Below are positions 20,846 to 57,828 of a stretch of DNA of 58,217 nucleotides, one piece after another. The number at the start of each line of letters is the position of its first letter. Position 1 is the first letter of the stretch. A program made the translations under genes and the position numbers. The DNA is from Hyphococcus sp. (GTDB lineage: Bacteria > Pseudomonadota > Alphaproteobacteria > Caulobacterales > Parvularculaceae), in assembly GCA_021776345.1 (NCBI GenBank), contig JAJFGC010000217.1:1-58217 (forward strand), read 5' to 3'. Under the pieces are notes generated by a model, which did no database searches, had not been told where the DNA came from, and saw nothing but the letters and a program-made list of their open reading frames with translations.

Positions 20846-23017
20846 ATGCGCTTTCTGGTTTTGACAACGCTCTATCCAAATGCGGCGATGCCGTCGCACG
20901 GGATCTTTGTCGAAAACCGGCTGCGGGCGTTTTTGAAACGCCATGATGCGGAGGTCCGCGTGATCGCGCCGGTTCCCTGGTTTCCGTTTCAACATGAAAC
21001 ATTCGGTAAATACGCTGCGTGGGCGCGCGTCCCGAAACGGGAAAGCCGTCATGGCGTTGAGATATATCACCCGCGATATTTGCTGCCGCCAAAAGTCGGT
21101 ATGCATTACGCACCTACCGCCTTGGCGCGGTGCTTTAGCAAAGCAATTGACGCCATCACCGGAAATGGATGGGATTTCGACTTTATCGACGCGCATTATT
21201 TCTATCCCGATGGCGTCGCGGCGACGGCAATCGCAAAAGAACGAGGCAAGCCAATTGCGATCACCGCTCGTGGCTCCGATGTCAGTTTCTTTCCTGACTA
21301 CCCAGGCCCGCGCAAAAAAATCATCCAGGCAGCAACCGATGCGGATGTCGTCATTACCGTCGCCGATGCGCTCAAAACCAATCTCAACTCCCTCGGCGCA
21401 CCGCAGCAAAAAATCACGACACTGCGCAACGGTGTTGACCTTGAGATATTCGCGCCGCGTGATCGCGCTGCAATTCGCCGTGAGATGGGCCTTTCCGGTT
21501 CCGTCATTCTCTCTGCCGGCCATTTGATTGAACGTAAAGGACATCATCTCGTTATTGAGGCGCTTAAAAAGCTGCCCGCCGCAACGTTGTTGATTGTCGG
21601 CGACGGCGAAGACAGACCGACCCTGGTTCGACAAGTCAAAGCCGCAAATCTTGACGCCCGTGTGCAGTTTCTGGGGGCGCTGGCGCCAGAAAAAATGCCA
21701 GACATCTACAACGCAGCGGATATTCTCGTGCTTGCCTCCTCGCGCGAAGGCTGGGCGAATGTTCTACTTGAGGCGATGGCTTGCGGCACGCCGTGTGTTG
21801 CAACCAATGTCGGCGGTAATCCGGAAGTTATTCGCGAGCCCGCGGCGGGGCGTCTCGTTGGCGATCTTACGTCCGATGCCATTGCCAAGGCCGTGAGCAC
21901 ACTCCTTTCAAATCCACCGGATCGCCAGTCAACACGGGGCTATGCGGAAACTCATTCGTGGAACGAGACTGCCGATCAAATGGCGGCGATTTTTTCCGGC
22001 CTTTCCAGGCGCGCCCGCGCAGCAGCGTCGATCACGACGGCGCCAATTTCTTTTGCAGAACCATACCGGCCAAAACTGATCATTACGGTGGACACGGAAG
22101 AAGCATTCAACTGGTCTGACTTTGAAACCAGTGCGCACAGTGTTTGTGAACCTGCCGACCTCAACATTTTTCAAAAAACCTGCGACAATGCGGGCGCCAA
22201 ACCGCTCTATCTTGTTACATACCCACTCCTCAAATATGCCGGGACCGCTTCTTATTTCCGATCGCTCAAAGACAATGACGCCGCCGACTTTGGCCTGCAC
22301 CTCCATCAATGGGTGACGCCGCCGGAAACACGGTTTTCCGAGGAGTATTTTTCCTACCAAAAGAACCTGCCGCAAGATATTCACGTAAAAAAACTCCGCG
22401 CCCTCGCCGACATGTTCGAAACCGTCTTTGGCGACCACGCAATCGCGCACCGCGCCGGGCGTTACGGGATTTCTTCCGCCGACTATGCCTTGCTCGCAGA
22501 GATCGGCGTCAGATTCGACTTCAGTCCCGGCGCGGCGTTTGATTTCTCTTCGACTGGCGGGCCTGACTTTTCCGGTTACGCCAATCATCCTTTTATCGTT
22601 AAGGGCGCGACCGCTCCTGTTTACGTAACGCCGGTCAGCGCGGCGAAAACAATCCGCGGGACAAAGCTATTCCAAAGTCAGGAAGGAAACTCGCCGGGTT
22701 TTTCAACAACTGCCAACACGCCATCCTGGAAAATTCCCATACGCCTCTCGCCTGAAGGCGCCAACCTCCAGACACTGAAAGCGCTGACCAAAAGGCTGAT
22801 CGCTGACAAGACACCCGTGCTCACATTTACCCTTCATTCAACAAGCTTAACAAAAGGCGCCAATTCATATGCGCCAGACGCCGACGGCGTTGATCACATC
22901 CTCTCTGTTACACGCGACTACCTCTCCTGGTTTCGCGAAAACATTGACGGCGAGCTTGTGTCGTTGGGCGATCTCGCGACGCTTTACGAAAACACCGCGA
23001 AAGCGTGCGCGACTTAA
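20846..23017 (+). CDS. Fusion: GT4-family glycosyltransferase (N) and polysaccharide deacetylase / WalW-like (C)
   Basis: N: MRFLVLTTLYPNAAMPSHGIFVENRLRAF...AADILVLASSREGWANVLLEAMACGTPCVATNVGGNPEV. C (from about 22068): PKLIITVDTEEAFNWSDF...DFGLHLHQWVTPP...HRAGRYGIS. Confidence 0.85.
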   Translation: MRFLVLTTLYPNAAMPSHGIFVENRLRAFLKRHDAEVRVIAPVPWFPFQHETFGKYAAWARVPKRESRHGVEIYHPRYLLPPKVGMHYAPTALARCFSKAIDAITGNGWDFDFIDAHYFYPDGVAATAIAKERGKPIAITARGSDVSFFPDYPGPRKKIIQAATDADVVITVADALKTNLNSLGAPQQKITTLRNGVDLEIFAPRDRAAIRREMGLSGSVILSAGHLIERKGHHLVIEALKKLPAATLLIVGDGEDRPTLVRQVKAANLDARVQFLGALAPEKMPDIYNAADILVLASSREGWANVLLEAMACGTPCVATNVGGNPEVIREPAAGRLVGDLTSDAIAKAVSTLLSNPPDRQSTRGYAETHSWNETADQMAAIFSGLSRRARAAASITTAPISFAEPYRPKLIITVDTEEAFNWSDFETSAHSVCEPADLNIFQKTCDNAGAKPLYLVTYPLLKYAGTASYFRSLKDNDAADFGLHLHQWVTPPETRFSEEYFSYQKNLPQDIHVKKLRALADMFETVFGDHAIAHRAGRYGISSADYALLAEIGVRFDFSPGAAFDFSSTGGPDFSGYANHPFIVKGATAPVYVTPVSAAKTIRGTKLFQSQEGNSPGFSTTANTPSWKIPIRLSPEGANLQTLKALTKRLIADKTPVLTFTLHSTSLTKGANSYAPDADGVDHILSVTRDYLSWFRENIDGELVSLGDLATLYENTAKACAT

Positions 23018-23077
23018 CACGCCATTAAGCATGAACCCGGTAATTTTTGCCTAGAGCCATCGGCAAAGGATTATCTC

Positions 23078-23443
23078 ATGCTGCTACCGGAAATCATGCG
23101 CATTCTGTTCGGTCTTGTCGCCGTTATCGGCCTTATTGGCATTTGCGCACTGGCCGCAAAAAAAGCGGGGCTTGCCTCTGCTTCCGGCGGCTTCGTTCGC
23201 AAGCGCCGTCTCGGCGTCGTAGAAACGCTGGCGCTTGATGGTCGCCGACGGCTCGCCATCATCAAATGTGACGGCGCGGAACATCTGATCGTTCTTGGCG
23301 CCACAAACGAAACGGTCATCGACCACAACCTCGCTGGCGCTATTACCGTTGAGGAAACCGACACGACCACCGCCGTGGCAAACCCGTTCCCGACCTTTGG
23401 CGATGTCGTCAAAAAACTGCGCCCGGCGAAAGACGCTGCGTGA
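23078..23443 (+). CDS. fliO: Flagellar biosynthetic protein FliO
   Basis: N-terminal TM then RRLGVVETLALDGRRRLAIIKCDGAEHLIVLG; directly upstream of fliP. Confidence 0.85.
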   Translation: MLLPEIMRILFGLVAVIGLIGICALAAKKAGLASASGGFVRKRRLGVVETLALDGRRRLAIIKCDGAEHLIVLGATNETVIDHNLAGAITVEETDTTTAVANPFPTFGDVVKKLRPAKDAA

Positions 23444-24195
23444 ACAAACCCTTCAGCATATTCCTGGTGGCGCTTGTTGCGTCGTTTACGATGTCTGCCG
23501 ATGTTGCGGCCCAGACCCTGACCCTCGATATGGGCGGGGAAGAAGGCGGCGGTCTGTCCGCGCGGATCATTCAACTGGTGCTCCTCACCACGGTCCTGTC
23601 GCTGGCGCCGTCGATCCTCATTATGATGACCTCGTTCATCCGCATCGTCGTCGTCCTCTCGCTGTTGCGCACCGCCATCGGCATTCAACAAAGCCCGCCC
23701 AATCCGGTGATCATTTCGCTGGCCTTGTTTCTGACCGCCTTCGTTATGGCGCCGACCTTTGGCGAGGCTTATCTCTCCGGCGTCAAACCGCTGATGGACG
23801 AAGAAATCACCATGGCAGAAGCTTTCCCGAAAACGGCCGCGCCGATCAAAACCTTTATGCTCGGCCAGACGCGGGAAAAAGACCTCGCGCTCTTTTTCGA
23901 TATGGCGGAAGTCACACCGGAAAGCCCGGAAGCGACACCCTTACATGTTCTGGTGCCGGCTTTCATGATTTCGGAGCTCCGACGCGCCTTTGAAATCGGC
24001 TTTATGATTTTCATTCCTTTCCTCATCATCGACATGGTGATCTCATCGATCCTGATGGCCATGGGCATGTTGATGCTGCCGCCAATCGTCATCTCCCTGC
24101 CGTTCAAACTGATCTTCTTTGTGTTGATCGACGGCTGGCGCCTGATCGCCGGCTCGCTCGTGCAGAGTTTCGCCGTCGCTCCGCCGCCGGGTTAA
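23440..24195 (+). CDS. fliP: Flagellar type III export protein FliP
   Basis: LIMMTSFIRIVVVLSLLRTAIGIQQSPPNPVIISLALFLTAFVM; VPAFMISELRRAFEIGFMIFIPFLIIDMVISSILMAMGM. Confidence 0.97.
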   Translation: MNKPFSIFLVALVASFTMSADVAAQTLTLDMGGEEGGGLSARIIQLVLLTTVLSLAPSILIMMTSFIRIVVVLSLLRTAIGIQQSPPNPVIISLALFLTAFVMAPTFGEAYLSGVKPLMDEEITMAEAFPKTAAPIKTFMLGQTREKDLALFFDMAEVTPESPEATPLHVLVPAFMISELRRAFEIGFMIFIPFLIIDMVISSILMAMGMLMLPPIVISLPFKLIFFVLIDGWRLIAGSLVQSFAVAPPPG

Positions 24196-38733: not shown

Positions 38734-38778
38734 GGGATGCTCCGGTTAGAACAAAATGAATAGGGACCATCCTCATGG

Positions 38779-38793
38779 TTACCCCGTTGTTAA
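38779..38793. promoter_or_regulatory. Near-consensus CtrA-type site in ftsZ upstream region
   Basis: TTAC-CCCGTTG-TTAA (minus strand TTAA-CAACGGG-GTAACC), one mismatch to TTAA-N7-TTAA. Confidence 0.5.
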
Positions 38794-38794
38794 A

Positions 38795-38799
38795 GATTC
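38795..38799. promoter_or_regulatory. GANTC (CcrM-type) site in ftsZ upstream region
   Basis: GATTC between the two CtrA-type sites. Confidence 0.55.
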
Positions 38800-38821
38800 G
38801 TTCAGAACCCTTTCCAAATGG

Positions 38822-38836
38822 TTAACGGCTCCTTAA
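38822..38836. promoter_or_regulatory. Perfect CtrA-type full site upstream of ftsZ
   Basis: Minus strand TTAA-GGAGCCG-TTAACCAT. Confidence 0.65.
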
Positions 38837-38842
38837 CGAACC

Positions 38843-54282: not shown

Positions 54283-55287
54283 TTATACTTTCCCTTCCTC
54301 AAAAACTTTTAAATGAATACGAACTGGAAGACCAAGGTCTTCGTCATCGTTTTTCGCCGCAGCCGCAAGCCTGGCGCCAGCGCGCAACTTCGCTGATCGT
54401 GCTCGCGGATTAACGCTGGTTTCTTCTTCACCGGGTTCAATCGCCTTGGCGAAAACCGGCTCAAATGTCGGCGCGGATTTCGGCGCGGGCGGCGCATGGC
54501 GCGACCCGCCCGATTGCGACGGAAACCTGTTTGCAAAAAACCGCTTGACGATTCGGTCTTCCAGCGAGTGAAATGTCACCGCAACAAGCCTTCCCGCGGG
54601 CCGCAGCAATCGCTCTGCGGCGCACAAACCAGAGACAAGCTGGCCAAGCTCGTCATTGACAAAAATTCGCAGCGCCTGAAATACACGCGTTGCCGGGTGA
54701 ATTTTCGATTTGCCGCGCGGCGGCGAGACTTTTTCGATGATCGCTGAAAGCGCCGTGGTTGTTGCGATTGGCGCGACATCACGGGCCTTTACGATTGCCC
54801 GCGAAATTCGCCCGCTTTTTTTTTCTTCGCCATAGGTTTTGAAAATCGACGCCAGCGATCGCGCATCCGCGACCGCAATAACATCGCTGGCGTCAGGCTT
54901 GGCGCCATCCATCCGCATTGATAGCGGTCCCTCATACCGGAACGAAAACCCCCGCTCCGGTTCGTCAAGCTGCATCGAGGATACGCCAAGGTCGAAGACA
55001 ATACCGTCAACGCTCTCTACGCCTTTTTCGGCAAGCGCCTCTTCCATTTCAGCAAATGGCCGGTTGATTAACCGCAACCGATCACCAAACTCATCAACCA
55101 GGGACTGAGCCCCTGCAATCGCGGAGGGGTCCCGGTCAAATCCGTAGACAGTGCAATTGGCCGCCTTCAGGATCGCGCGCGCATAACCGCCAGCGCCGAA
55201 GGTTGCATCAACGTAGATACCGTTTTCCCGGGGCGCGAGCGCCGTCACCACTTCACGCACCATCACCGGGACATGGGCCGCGCTCAT
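54283..55287 (-). CDS. rsmH: 16S rRNA (cytosine1402-N4)-methyltransferase
   Basis: HVPVMVREVVTALAPRENGIYVDATFGAGGYARAIL; GIVFDLGVSSMQLDEPERGFSFRYEGPLSMRMD. Confidence 0.97.
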   Translation of the reverse strand: MSAAHVPVMVREVVTALAPRENGIYVDATFGAGGYARAILKAANCTVYGFDRDPSAIAGAQSLVDEFGDRLRLINRPFAEMEEALAEKGVESVDGIVFDLGVSSMQLDEPERGFSFRYEGPLSMRMDGAKPDASDVIAVADARSLASIFKTYGEEKKSGRISRAIVKARDVAPIATTTALSAIIEKVSPPRGKSKIHPATRVFQALRIFVNDELGQLVSGLCAAERLLRPAGRLVAVTFHSLEDRIVKRFFANRFPSQSGGSRHAPPAPKSAPTFEPVFAKAIEPGEEETSVNPRARSAKLRAGARLAAAAKNDDEDLGLPVRIHLKVFEEGKV

Positions 55288-55766
55288 GACACAACTCCAT
55301 TTGGCGTAGGATTGCGCAAAGAGAGTTTTGCGTCCGCAGTAATTTTTTCTTCTTCAGCAGCAATTTTTTCAAATTCATCCGGGTTCCAGATCTGAAACGA
55401 CGTGCCGAGACCGGCGAACATTGCCTTGCCCTCAAGTCCGGCGTGATCGCGCAGATGTTGCGGCAGGACCACCCGGCCTTCTTTGTCGAGGCCTACCTCA
55501 ACTACCCGCGCCGTGACGGTTCGCTCGAGACTTCGCCGTTTGTGGGAAAATGGGTCCAACGCCGCAATCGACGCCATCAGCGTTTCGATATAGTCAGCGC
55601 CTCCACAATCGAGGCATTTTTCGTCTGTAGACGGAATACAATAGATGGCGCCGCCACGCTCAAGATCGAGGACGCGGCGAAACCGCGCCGGCGTGGCGAG
55701 ACGACCCTTCGCATCAATCTTGTTTACAAACGACCCAAAAAACAGGGTCTCGGCCCCGCGCCGCAT
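55284..55766 (-). CDS. mraZ: Transcriptional regulator / division protein MraZ
   Basis: ETLFFGSFVNKIDAKGRLATPARFRRVL; EGRVVLPQHLRDHAGL; ATG 55766 with GGAGG SD. Confidence 0.95.
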   Translation of the reverse strand: MRRGAETLFFGSFVNKIDAKGRLATPARFRRVLDLERGGAIYCIPSTDEKCLDCGGADYIETLMASIAALDPFSHKRRSLERTVTARVVEVGLDKEGRVVLPQHLRDHAGLEGKAMFAGLGTSFQIWNPDEFEKIAAEEEKITADAKLSLRNPTPNGVVS

Positions 55767-55855
55767 GCCCAAATGCCTCCGCTGCAGCGCCCGCCAGTCA
55801 TGGAGATGACTTTGGGATACGCCGCCCCTAATGCCGTAAAACTCACGACATCTTT

Positions 55856-55880
55856 TGGGATAGCATGGTATCTTATGGGA
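55856..55880 (+). promoter_or_regulatory. Putative MraZ operator-like array (10-bp period)
   Basis: TGGGA-TAGCA-TGGTA-TCTTA-TGGGA; further TTTGGGATA at 55811-55819. Confidence 0.45.
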
Positions 55881-55890
55881 GGCAAAGGAT

Positions 55891-55964
55891 GATTCGCCCC
55901 AAAATCCGGGTTTTTGACGATGATTCCGGAACAGAAACGGAACAATACCGAATCACCTAGACTC
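55891..55964. promoter_or_regulatory. Cluster of four GANTC (CcrM-type) sites upstream of mraZ
   Basis: GATTC 55891, GATTC 55922, GAATC 55950, GACTC 55960. Confidence 0.6.
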
Positions 55965-55982
55965 ATCATCAGTAAACACAGG

Positions 55983-55997
55983 TTAATTTTTGATTAA
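55983..55997. promoter_or_regulatory. Perfect CtrA-type full site upstream of mraZ
   Basis: TTAA-TTTTTGA-TTAA (minus strand TTAA-TCAAAAA-TTAACC). Confidence 0.55.
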
Positions 55998-56068
55998 AAA
56001 GCGAGGGCTAGCAACGAAGAGTTCTGCAGCCCGACGTCGCCGCCCTCATGCCGGCAACAACCGGCACC

Positions 56069-56494
56069 CTAGGACGCCTTTATCCGGGCGGCAAAACTCT
56101 CATCCGCAGCGGCAATCTCGCGCCGACCTGCTGATTTCTTTTCAGCGCGCTCGTTAACGCCGATCAGATGTTCCAGTTTTTGGATTTCGATGAAAGACGT
56201 TTCGAGTTTATCGCGGGCGCCCTCTTCAGCATTTTGCAGCGTCATCAGTGTTGTTTGTAGATTATGCCGCCTTGCCCGCACGCCTTCGACATAGGCCGCA
56301 AACGCCGCTGTGTCGCCGGCTCTAGCAGACACCTCTTCCTCACGCATGGTCTCGTCAAGAGCTTGCCGCGATGCTTCAGCAGACGCCTTTGCCCGCTCTA
56401 CATCGGCCAGGTCCGTGCGCAATGCTTCCGCGTCGGCACGCGCAATCTTCAGTAGTTTATTCAAGCTCTCGCGCGTGCGCACCGTATCTGTCAT
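56069..56494 (-). CDS. fliJ: Flagellar export chaperone FliJ
   Basis: 141-aa coiled-coil protein overlapping the fliI stop by 4 bp. Confidence 0.8.
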   Translation of the reverse strand: MTDTVRTRESLNKLLKIARADAEALRTDLADVERAKASAEASRQALDETMREEEVSARAGDTAAFAAYVEGVRARRHNLQTTLMTLQNAEEGARDKLETSFIEIQKLEHLIGVNERAEKKSAGRREIAAADESFAARIKAS

Positions 56495-57828
56495 TGATCA
56501 TGATCCTCTGCTAACGCCGATCCTAACATCGAAAACGTTTCCTCAATGGAAACGCGAGACGACAGGGCTTGCGCTAAAAAGTCTTCGAGTTTGGGTTGCA
56601 AGGCAATAGCGCGGTCAACGTCAGCGTTCGCGCCGTCTCGATAAGCGCCAATACGGATCAGTTCGCGCATGTCGTCATAGGCCGAGGCATGCAATCGCGC
56701 TGTCGCAATTAATGCGCCGTTGTCTTCGCTAACGGCGTCCGGCATCGCCCGCGAAATGGATTTCAAAATATCTACGGCCGGAAATCGCCCGCGCTCGGCG
56801 ATGCGCCGATCAAGGACAATATGACCGTCAAGGATCGCACGCGCCGCATCGGCAATCGGTTCATCATGATCGTCGCCCTCAACCAGCACGGAAAAAACGC
56901 CGGTAATATAGCCGGGCGATGCACTGTCGATGCCTGGCCCCGCGCGCTCAATGAGCGCCGGCATCGTCGAAAAGACCGACGGCGTATATCCTTTGGTCGT
57001 CGGCGGCTCGCCCGCGGCCAGACCAATCTCTCGTTGCGCCATCGCAATGCGCGTCAGTGAATCCATGAGACAAAGGACATGAGCGCCCTCATCACGAAAA
57101 TGCTCCGCCAGTGTCAGCGCCATGAAACCGGCTTCACGGCGCATCATGGCCGGTTCATCCGACGTTGCGACCACAACAATGGAGCGCGCCAACCCTTCTG
57201 GACCCAAATGATCTTCAATAAAATCGCGCACTTCCCGGCCGCGCTCGCCAATCAAGGCAATGACCGAGACATCGCACGCAGTGTTGCGCGCGATCATGCC
57301 AAGGAGCGCGGATTTACCGACACCAGAGCCGGAAAAGACACCCATCCGCTGCCCGGCGCGAGCCGGCGTGAAGGCGTTGAGCGCCTTAACGCCGAAATCA
57401 ACCGGTCCGCCCAATCTGGCGCGCAACGGTGCTGTCGGGGGGCTGGACCGGAGCAAGCGGCTAACAGCGCCCTCGTCTATTGGGCCTTTGCCGTCAATTG
57501 GCCGCCCGAGCCCATCGACGACGCGCCCGAGCCATGCATGAGACGGGCGAATGCTGGAGGCGTCGCGCAGAAACATCGTTCGAGCGCCGCGCCGAACACC
57601 TTCTACCGACCCAAAAGGCAAGGCCAGCGCACTCGTCTCATTGAGGCCGACAATCTCTGCAAGCAGCGGCGCCGAGCCTGTTTCGATTTCGACACGAGCG
57701 TTCATCTGTAACGCGCCGAGACGATCAGAGATTTCAAGCCCCAGCCCGGAAACGGAAAGAACGGCCCCCTCAACATTGAAGGGTTCTATTCGTGATACTG
57801 ATTTTTGGGCGGCGACAGCAATGGTCAT
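56491..57828 (-). CDS. fliI: Flagellum-specific ATPase FliI
   Basis: GVFSGSGVGKSALLGMIARNT; ALIGERGREVRDFIEDHLG; CLMDSLTRIAMAQREIGLAAGEPPTTKGYTPSVF. Confidence 0.97.
   Translation of the reverse strand: MTIAVAAQKSVSRIEPFNVEGAVLSVSGLGLEISDRLGALQMNARVEIETGSAPLLAEIVGLNETSALALPFGSVEGVRRGARTMFLRDASSIRPSHAWLGRVVDGLGRPIDGKGPIDEGAVSRLLRSSPPTAPLRARLGGPVDFGVKALNAFTPARAGQRMGVFSGSGVGKSALLGMIARNTACDVSVIALIGERGREVRDFIEDHLGPEGLARSIVVVATSDEPAMMRREAGFMALTLAEHFRDEGAHVLCLMDSLTRIAMAQREIGLAAGEPPTTKGYTPSVFSTMPALIERAGPGIDSASPGYITGVFSVLVEGDDHDEPIADAARAILDGHIVLDRRIAERGRFPAVDILKSISRAMPDAVSEDNGALIATARLHASAYDDMRELIRIGAYRDGANADVDRAIALQPKLEDFLAQALSSRVSIEETFSMLGSALAEDHDQ

Follow-up and report, generated by a model that had tools for sequence, protein, structure and literature searches.

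A predicted LexA operator in a composite control region upstream of the mraZ-led dcw operon of Hyphococcus sp.

Upstream of mraZ, the first gene of the dcw operon, the 58,217-bp stretch of Hyphococcus sp. DNA analysed here (the window) contains what is, judged from sequence and its conservation, a genuine composite control region, the most notable input of which is a predicted LexA (SOS) box. The presence there of putative binding sites for CtrA, GcrA/CcrM, MraZ and LexA is strongly supported by comparison with related genomes. An initial annotation had read the region as a hub for CtrA, methylation and MraZ; these elements prove to be conserved in position within the genus and their regulators are encoded, but the fourth input, LexA, had been overlooked. 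All five regulators are present in the genome, namely CtrA (403 bits with NF045991, above the cut-off, at C255), GcrA (169 bits with PF07750), CcrM (closest in the PDB to 6pbd, the Modification methylase CcrMI, at 6e-164), LexA, for which there is a single gene, and MraZ itself.

The mraZ coding sequence (55284–55766, minus strand) specifies a protein of 160 residues belonging to Pfam family PF02381, and a search with this single protein groups the genome with Marinicaulis MAGs. A start at the TTG at 55772 had been suggested, but related proteins share an MRRGAET start at the ATG at 55766, which is therefore taken as the start; the ribosome-binding site GGAGG (55776–55780, minus strand) is conserved in the alignment described below. 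The 5′ side of mraZ is adjoined by fliI and a fliJ-like gene (56069–57828) running in the same direction, so that flagellar and division genes are neighbours. Since the fliJ-like gene, which lies directly behind fliI, is codirectional with mraZ, the intervening 302-bp gap faces mraZ only and the window offers no divergent competitor for the sites within it.

The mraZ upstream regions of the genus and family of the window's genome were gathered, 24 relatives were aligned and the information per column was calculated by block. Conservation in this alignment peaks exactly on the sites and amounts to 0.3–0.6 bits in the gaps between them. Among the GANTC sites lies an element absent from the initial annotation, GTTCCGTTTCTGTTC at 55929–55943 on the minus strand, a perfect GTTC-N7-GTTC which reads TTGTTC-CGTTTC-TGTTC in the sense direction and has the flanked form (T)TGTTC-N6-TGTTC. 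Its half-sites hold 1.60 and 1.79 bits and its spacer 1.80 bits, making it as conserved as the MraZ boxes. GTTC-N7-GTTC is the SOS operator of alphaproteobacteria (PMC9578287, PMC13384398). The same repeat, in the form of ATGTTCTAT-type boxes, is found at the lexA promoters of all 25 genus relatives with a located lexA start (25/25), and in the window's own genome it also occurs at lexA, at imuA-imuB and at Y-family polymerase, mmcB-like and dnaE-like genes, these gene names having been assigned by reading translations. Sharing both the consensus and the box type of its own regulon, the element at 55929–55943 has the sequence expected of a LexA (SOS) operator.

The motifs concerned are short, and their coincidence might reflect no more than a chance cluster in AT-richer intergenic DNA; GTTC-N7-GTTC is not enriched across the genome, with 79 occurrences against 107 for the reversed control, and the case for LexA therefore rests on position and conservation. 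On both counts a chance cluster is very improbable, as conservation is restricted to the motifs, their spacing is constrained, and the order has 42 genomes out of 199 in which a LexA box is followed after 45–75 nt by an MraZ array, against one for the reversed control. With a distance of 72–102 nt the same pairing occurs in 12 of the 386 class genomes and never for the control, and nine of the 12 matches, belonging to five families outside the order, were confirmed upstream of a readable mraZ; these counts (42/199 and 12/386) come from related genomes and do not represent independent events. For the LexA box itself a chance origin is rejected in view of the control counts, one in the order and none in the class.

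Another reading leaves the promoter autoregulated by MraZ with input from CtrA and GcrA only, and gives GTTC-N7-GTTC to a different direct-repeat regulator, for example one of the OmpR family, whose response regulators also read repeats of about 11 bp. The mraZ box is tighter than lexA's own, with 1.80 bits for its N6 CGTTTC against a variable N6 at lexA, its TTCCGGAA extension is also conserved, and NtrX and CenR have been reported at the dcw promoters of R. sphaeroides. However, the mraZ box fits the Caulobacter LexA consensus (T/A)TGTTC-N6-TGTTC, and the mraZ boxes of other families vary in spacer but keep GTTC-N7-GTTC(T), as expected for LexA, so that a regulator other than LexA is considered unlikely. 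CenR and NtrX were rejected as candidates for the GTTC repeat, since the motifs reported for them (TGA-N8-TGA and GCA-N9-TGC respectively) are different. Within the genus the CGTTTC of the predicted LexA box is nearly invariant together with the CGGAA that follows it. Some further constraint would seem to act on this spacer and on CGGAA and, because an invariant N6 exceeds what LexA needs, another factor may bind the LexA box.

The predicted CtrA box, TTAATCAAAAATTAA in the sense direction (TTAATTTTTGATTAA on the forward strand), occupies 55983–55997 on the minus strand, as the initial annotation had described for its TTAA-N7-TTAA, for which P = 0.006 under an order-1 Markov model of this 296-bp region. 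The half-sites hold 1.37 and 1.51 bits compared with 0.56 for the N7 spacer, and the box is perfect in 13 of the 24 relatives, while TT[AC]A-N7-TTAA is present in 20. The 3.64-Mb genome has 47 perfect sites, of which three fall in the window, one at mraZ, one between ftsA and ftsZ and one just upstream of a flagellar segment containing fliP; two of the three are therefore at dcw promoters. With a conserved TTAA-N7-TTAA and CtrA encoded in the genome, mraZ presents the sequence features of a CtrA-regulated promoter. The second perfect box of the dcw cluster (38822–38836, minus strand) lies in the ftsA-ftsZ gap (38734–38842) with a GANTC at 38795, forming a pair like that of the mraZ region, and the third (23014–23028) comes shortly before a small ORF and fliP (23440–24195, plus strand), flagellar genes being typical targets of CtrA.

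Four GANTC motifs had been noted within 74 bp, and they are present, at 55891, 55922, 55950 and 55960. They form the only four-site cluster in the window, and the description of this cluster as notable is borne out (P = 0.0014 for at least four in 74 bp, order-1 Markov), but the background of one per 256 bp given with it was too high; the window contains 65 sites in 58,217 bp, or one per 896 bp, and the cluster is therefore rarer than had been claimed. The number of sites per 260 bp ranges from 0 to 4 among the 24 relatives, with a mean of 2.0 where 0.29 is expected. In the alignment of relatives' upstream regions, which the initial annotation had put forward as a check, the CtrA half-sites, TGATTCG and the MraZ boxes are kept, but the full set of four GANTC is peculiar to this genome, the position retained in most relatives being TGATTCG at 55949–55955 (minus strand). 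This putative GcrA/CcrM site matches the extended motif reported for activation by GcrA in C. crescentus (PMC7987155), a preference for extended GANTC that was not found in Brevundimonas subvibrioides (PMC7987155). TGATTCG itself is found at this position in 17 of the 24 relatives and YGAKTCK in 20; the block holds 1.47 bits compared with 0.28–0.44 for its flanks, and the distance from the start of the CtrA box is 43–44 nt in most relatives having both. The remaining sites are TGAGTCT (55959–55965, minus strand), an extended form of the YGAKTCK type which is not conserved in most relatives; GAATC (55922–55926, minus strand), directly after the LexA box and not of the extended GcrA form; and an extended TGATTCG on the plus strand (55890–55896), just upstream of the proximal −35, the sense form of which, CGAATCA, is present in 8/24 relatives. 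Three of the 22 occurrences of YGAKTCK in the window fall in the mraZ upstream region. An extended GANTC, in a genome encoding CcrM and GcrA, is what would be expected of a GcrA/CcrM-regulated promoter.

The MraZ repeat array TGGGATAGCATGGTATCTTATGGGA is likewise present at 55856–55880 and arose in none of 20,000 Markov sequences. Its TGGGA repeats are antisense to mraZ, and the sense (minus) strand reads TCCCA-N5-TACCA-N5-TCCCA with boxes at 55876–55880, 55866–55870 and 55856–55860. Each box holds 1.58–1.84 bits, and the array is found in 22 of the 24 relatives and across the order. With two perfect boxes and one TACCA (TGGTA) box the number of repeats is that of an MraZ operator, and some relatives have four boxes. 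A further TCCCA (sense GTATCCCA) at 55814–55818, downstream of the array and out of register with it, is common to close relatives. As in E. coli PmraZ there are three 5-bp boxes, 10 bp apart and directly upstream of mraZ. However, E. coli has TGGGN on the sense strand and, with its leader reported as 38 nt (PMC5089854), its boxes fall downstream of the start, whereas here they are antisense and inside the −35/−10 interval of a predicted core promoter; orientation and place therefore both differ.

This proximal promoter, P2, is predicted from a conserved TTGACC-N17/18-TATCCC, in which the first MraZ box comes directly after TTGAC and the third overlaps with TATCCC, both in the genus and in several other families. 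In the window the putative −35 is TTGCCT (55880–55885, minus strand; TTGACC in many relatives) and the putative −10, 17 bp away, is TATCCC (55857–55862, minus strand). A generic sigma-70 scan of the region found no promoter, and the promoter calls therefore rest on conservation. Transcription from P2 would start at about 55850, giving a predicted leader of about 84 nt. A possible short hairpin just after the predicted start of this transcript (about 55826–55855; 55830–55852, minus strand) folds in most relatives with stems that differ, RNAalifold giving no consensus for it among relatives, and in most of them a conserved AGGGGCGGCG-like stretch follows the hairpins. An Rfam search returned nothing above the cut-off, and there is no support for a leader RNA resembling the UpsM of R. 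sphaeroides.

The initial annotation had the various inputs integrated at one promoter. The CtrA, GcrA and LexA sites form a cluster about 80–150 bp ahead of where P2 transcription is predicted to begin, while the MraZ boxes lie inside P2, and two promoters are therefore more likely. The LexA box itself is about 79–93 bp upstream of that predicted start and about 43 bp upstream of the P2 −35, a distance that is greater in other families. In the following scheme, which we regard as probable, we infer the occupancy of the sites, a distal start (P1), the direction in which SOS acts and the phenotype: MraZ autorepresses P2, and the distal start is activated by CtrA and GcrA and repressed by LexA. 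MraZ bound to three in-phase boxes spanning the −35 to the −10 of P2 would repress its own operon by occlusion, CtrA and methylation-dependent GcrA (at TGATTCG) would set the timing of P1, and LexA on GTTC-N7-GTTC would block P1, or modulate the region, until inactivated upon DNA damage. The SOS response would then increase mraZ-led transcription via P1, and the extra MraZ would shut P2, the dcw operon in this manner combining cell-cycle input, MraZ feedback and SOS input.

Alternatively LexA may bind but activate or tune the proximal promoter from upstream, with no distal promoter at all. The box is indeed upstream of the P2 −35, which is not the usual position for a repressor, and the window shows no clear −10 for P1. 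Inspection by eye of several other families, however, revealed −10-like hexamers (AATACT, GATACT, TATAGG, TATAGA) 16–17 bp past a LexA half-site, suggesting a LexA-occluded distal promoter in those families, and the role of an activator or tuner appears doubtful. Under the preferred arrangement of two promoters, the distal promoter of the window would depend on CtrA and GcrA instead.

The wider proposal that LexA directly controls the dcw operon via mraZ in Caulobacterales and in several other alphaproteobacterial families, with damage releasing the distal promoter, raising MraZ and reprogramming division and cell-wall transcription, is possible and is put forward tentatively. The known SOS control of division in alphaproteobacteria operates through inhibitor proteins (SidA), DidA being SOS-independent. 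If correct, the proposal would add a transcriptional link between SOS and division beside protein inhibitors such as SidA. With a conserved LexA operator heading the division and cell-wall operon, DNA damage would bear directly on how the division machinery is transcribed, alongside control by CtrA, GcrA and MraZ, and SOS input at mraZ would offer a role for MraZ.

Each of the control types (CtrA, GcrA/CcrM, MraZ and LexA) is known, and their joining at mraZ is classed as a variant. Gut Gram-positive bacteria likewise have a LexA operator at mraZ, confirmed there in EMSA using B. subtilis LexA, but the LexA motif and the phylum are different and there is no CtrA/GcrA context (PMC3998124). A CtrA box with an extended GANTC is found at the ftsZ and ftsN division promoters of Caulobacterales (PMC7987155), as here, whereas in the present case the pair is at mraZ and is joined with LexA and MraZ sites. 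The mraZ gene of S. meliloti also has an upstream CtrA motif, as a prediction only, the combination with LexA and GANTC not being mentioned in the passage concerned (PMC3616915). Among the papers listed for LexA plus mraZ none was seen to concern alphaproteobacteria, and in the main texts searched on the SOS response of C. crescentus mraZ is not given as a target; an earlier mention in older primary SOS regulon work is possible, and priority is not established.

The inputs differ in their distribution. Among the mraZ upstream regions sampled from the order, all six of family f3 contain GTTC-N7-GTTC, as do 14/20 of f5 and 2/7 of f4, and none of the seven of f2 does; in f4 one of the two matches lies on the downstream side of the MraZ array. 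Perfect CtrA boxes and clusters of GANTC are for the most part restricted to the window's genus among the families sampled, CtrA and GANTC sites being missing in several of the 24 relatives and in most of the other families. The LexA and MraZ inputs therefore look older or more widely shared, while those of CtrA and GANTC look lineage-specific. In another alphaproteobacterial family, two genomes each present two overlapping LexA boxes, formed by three GTTC half-sites, upstream of mraZ.
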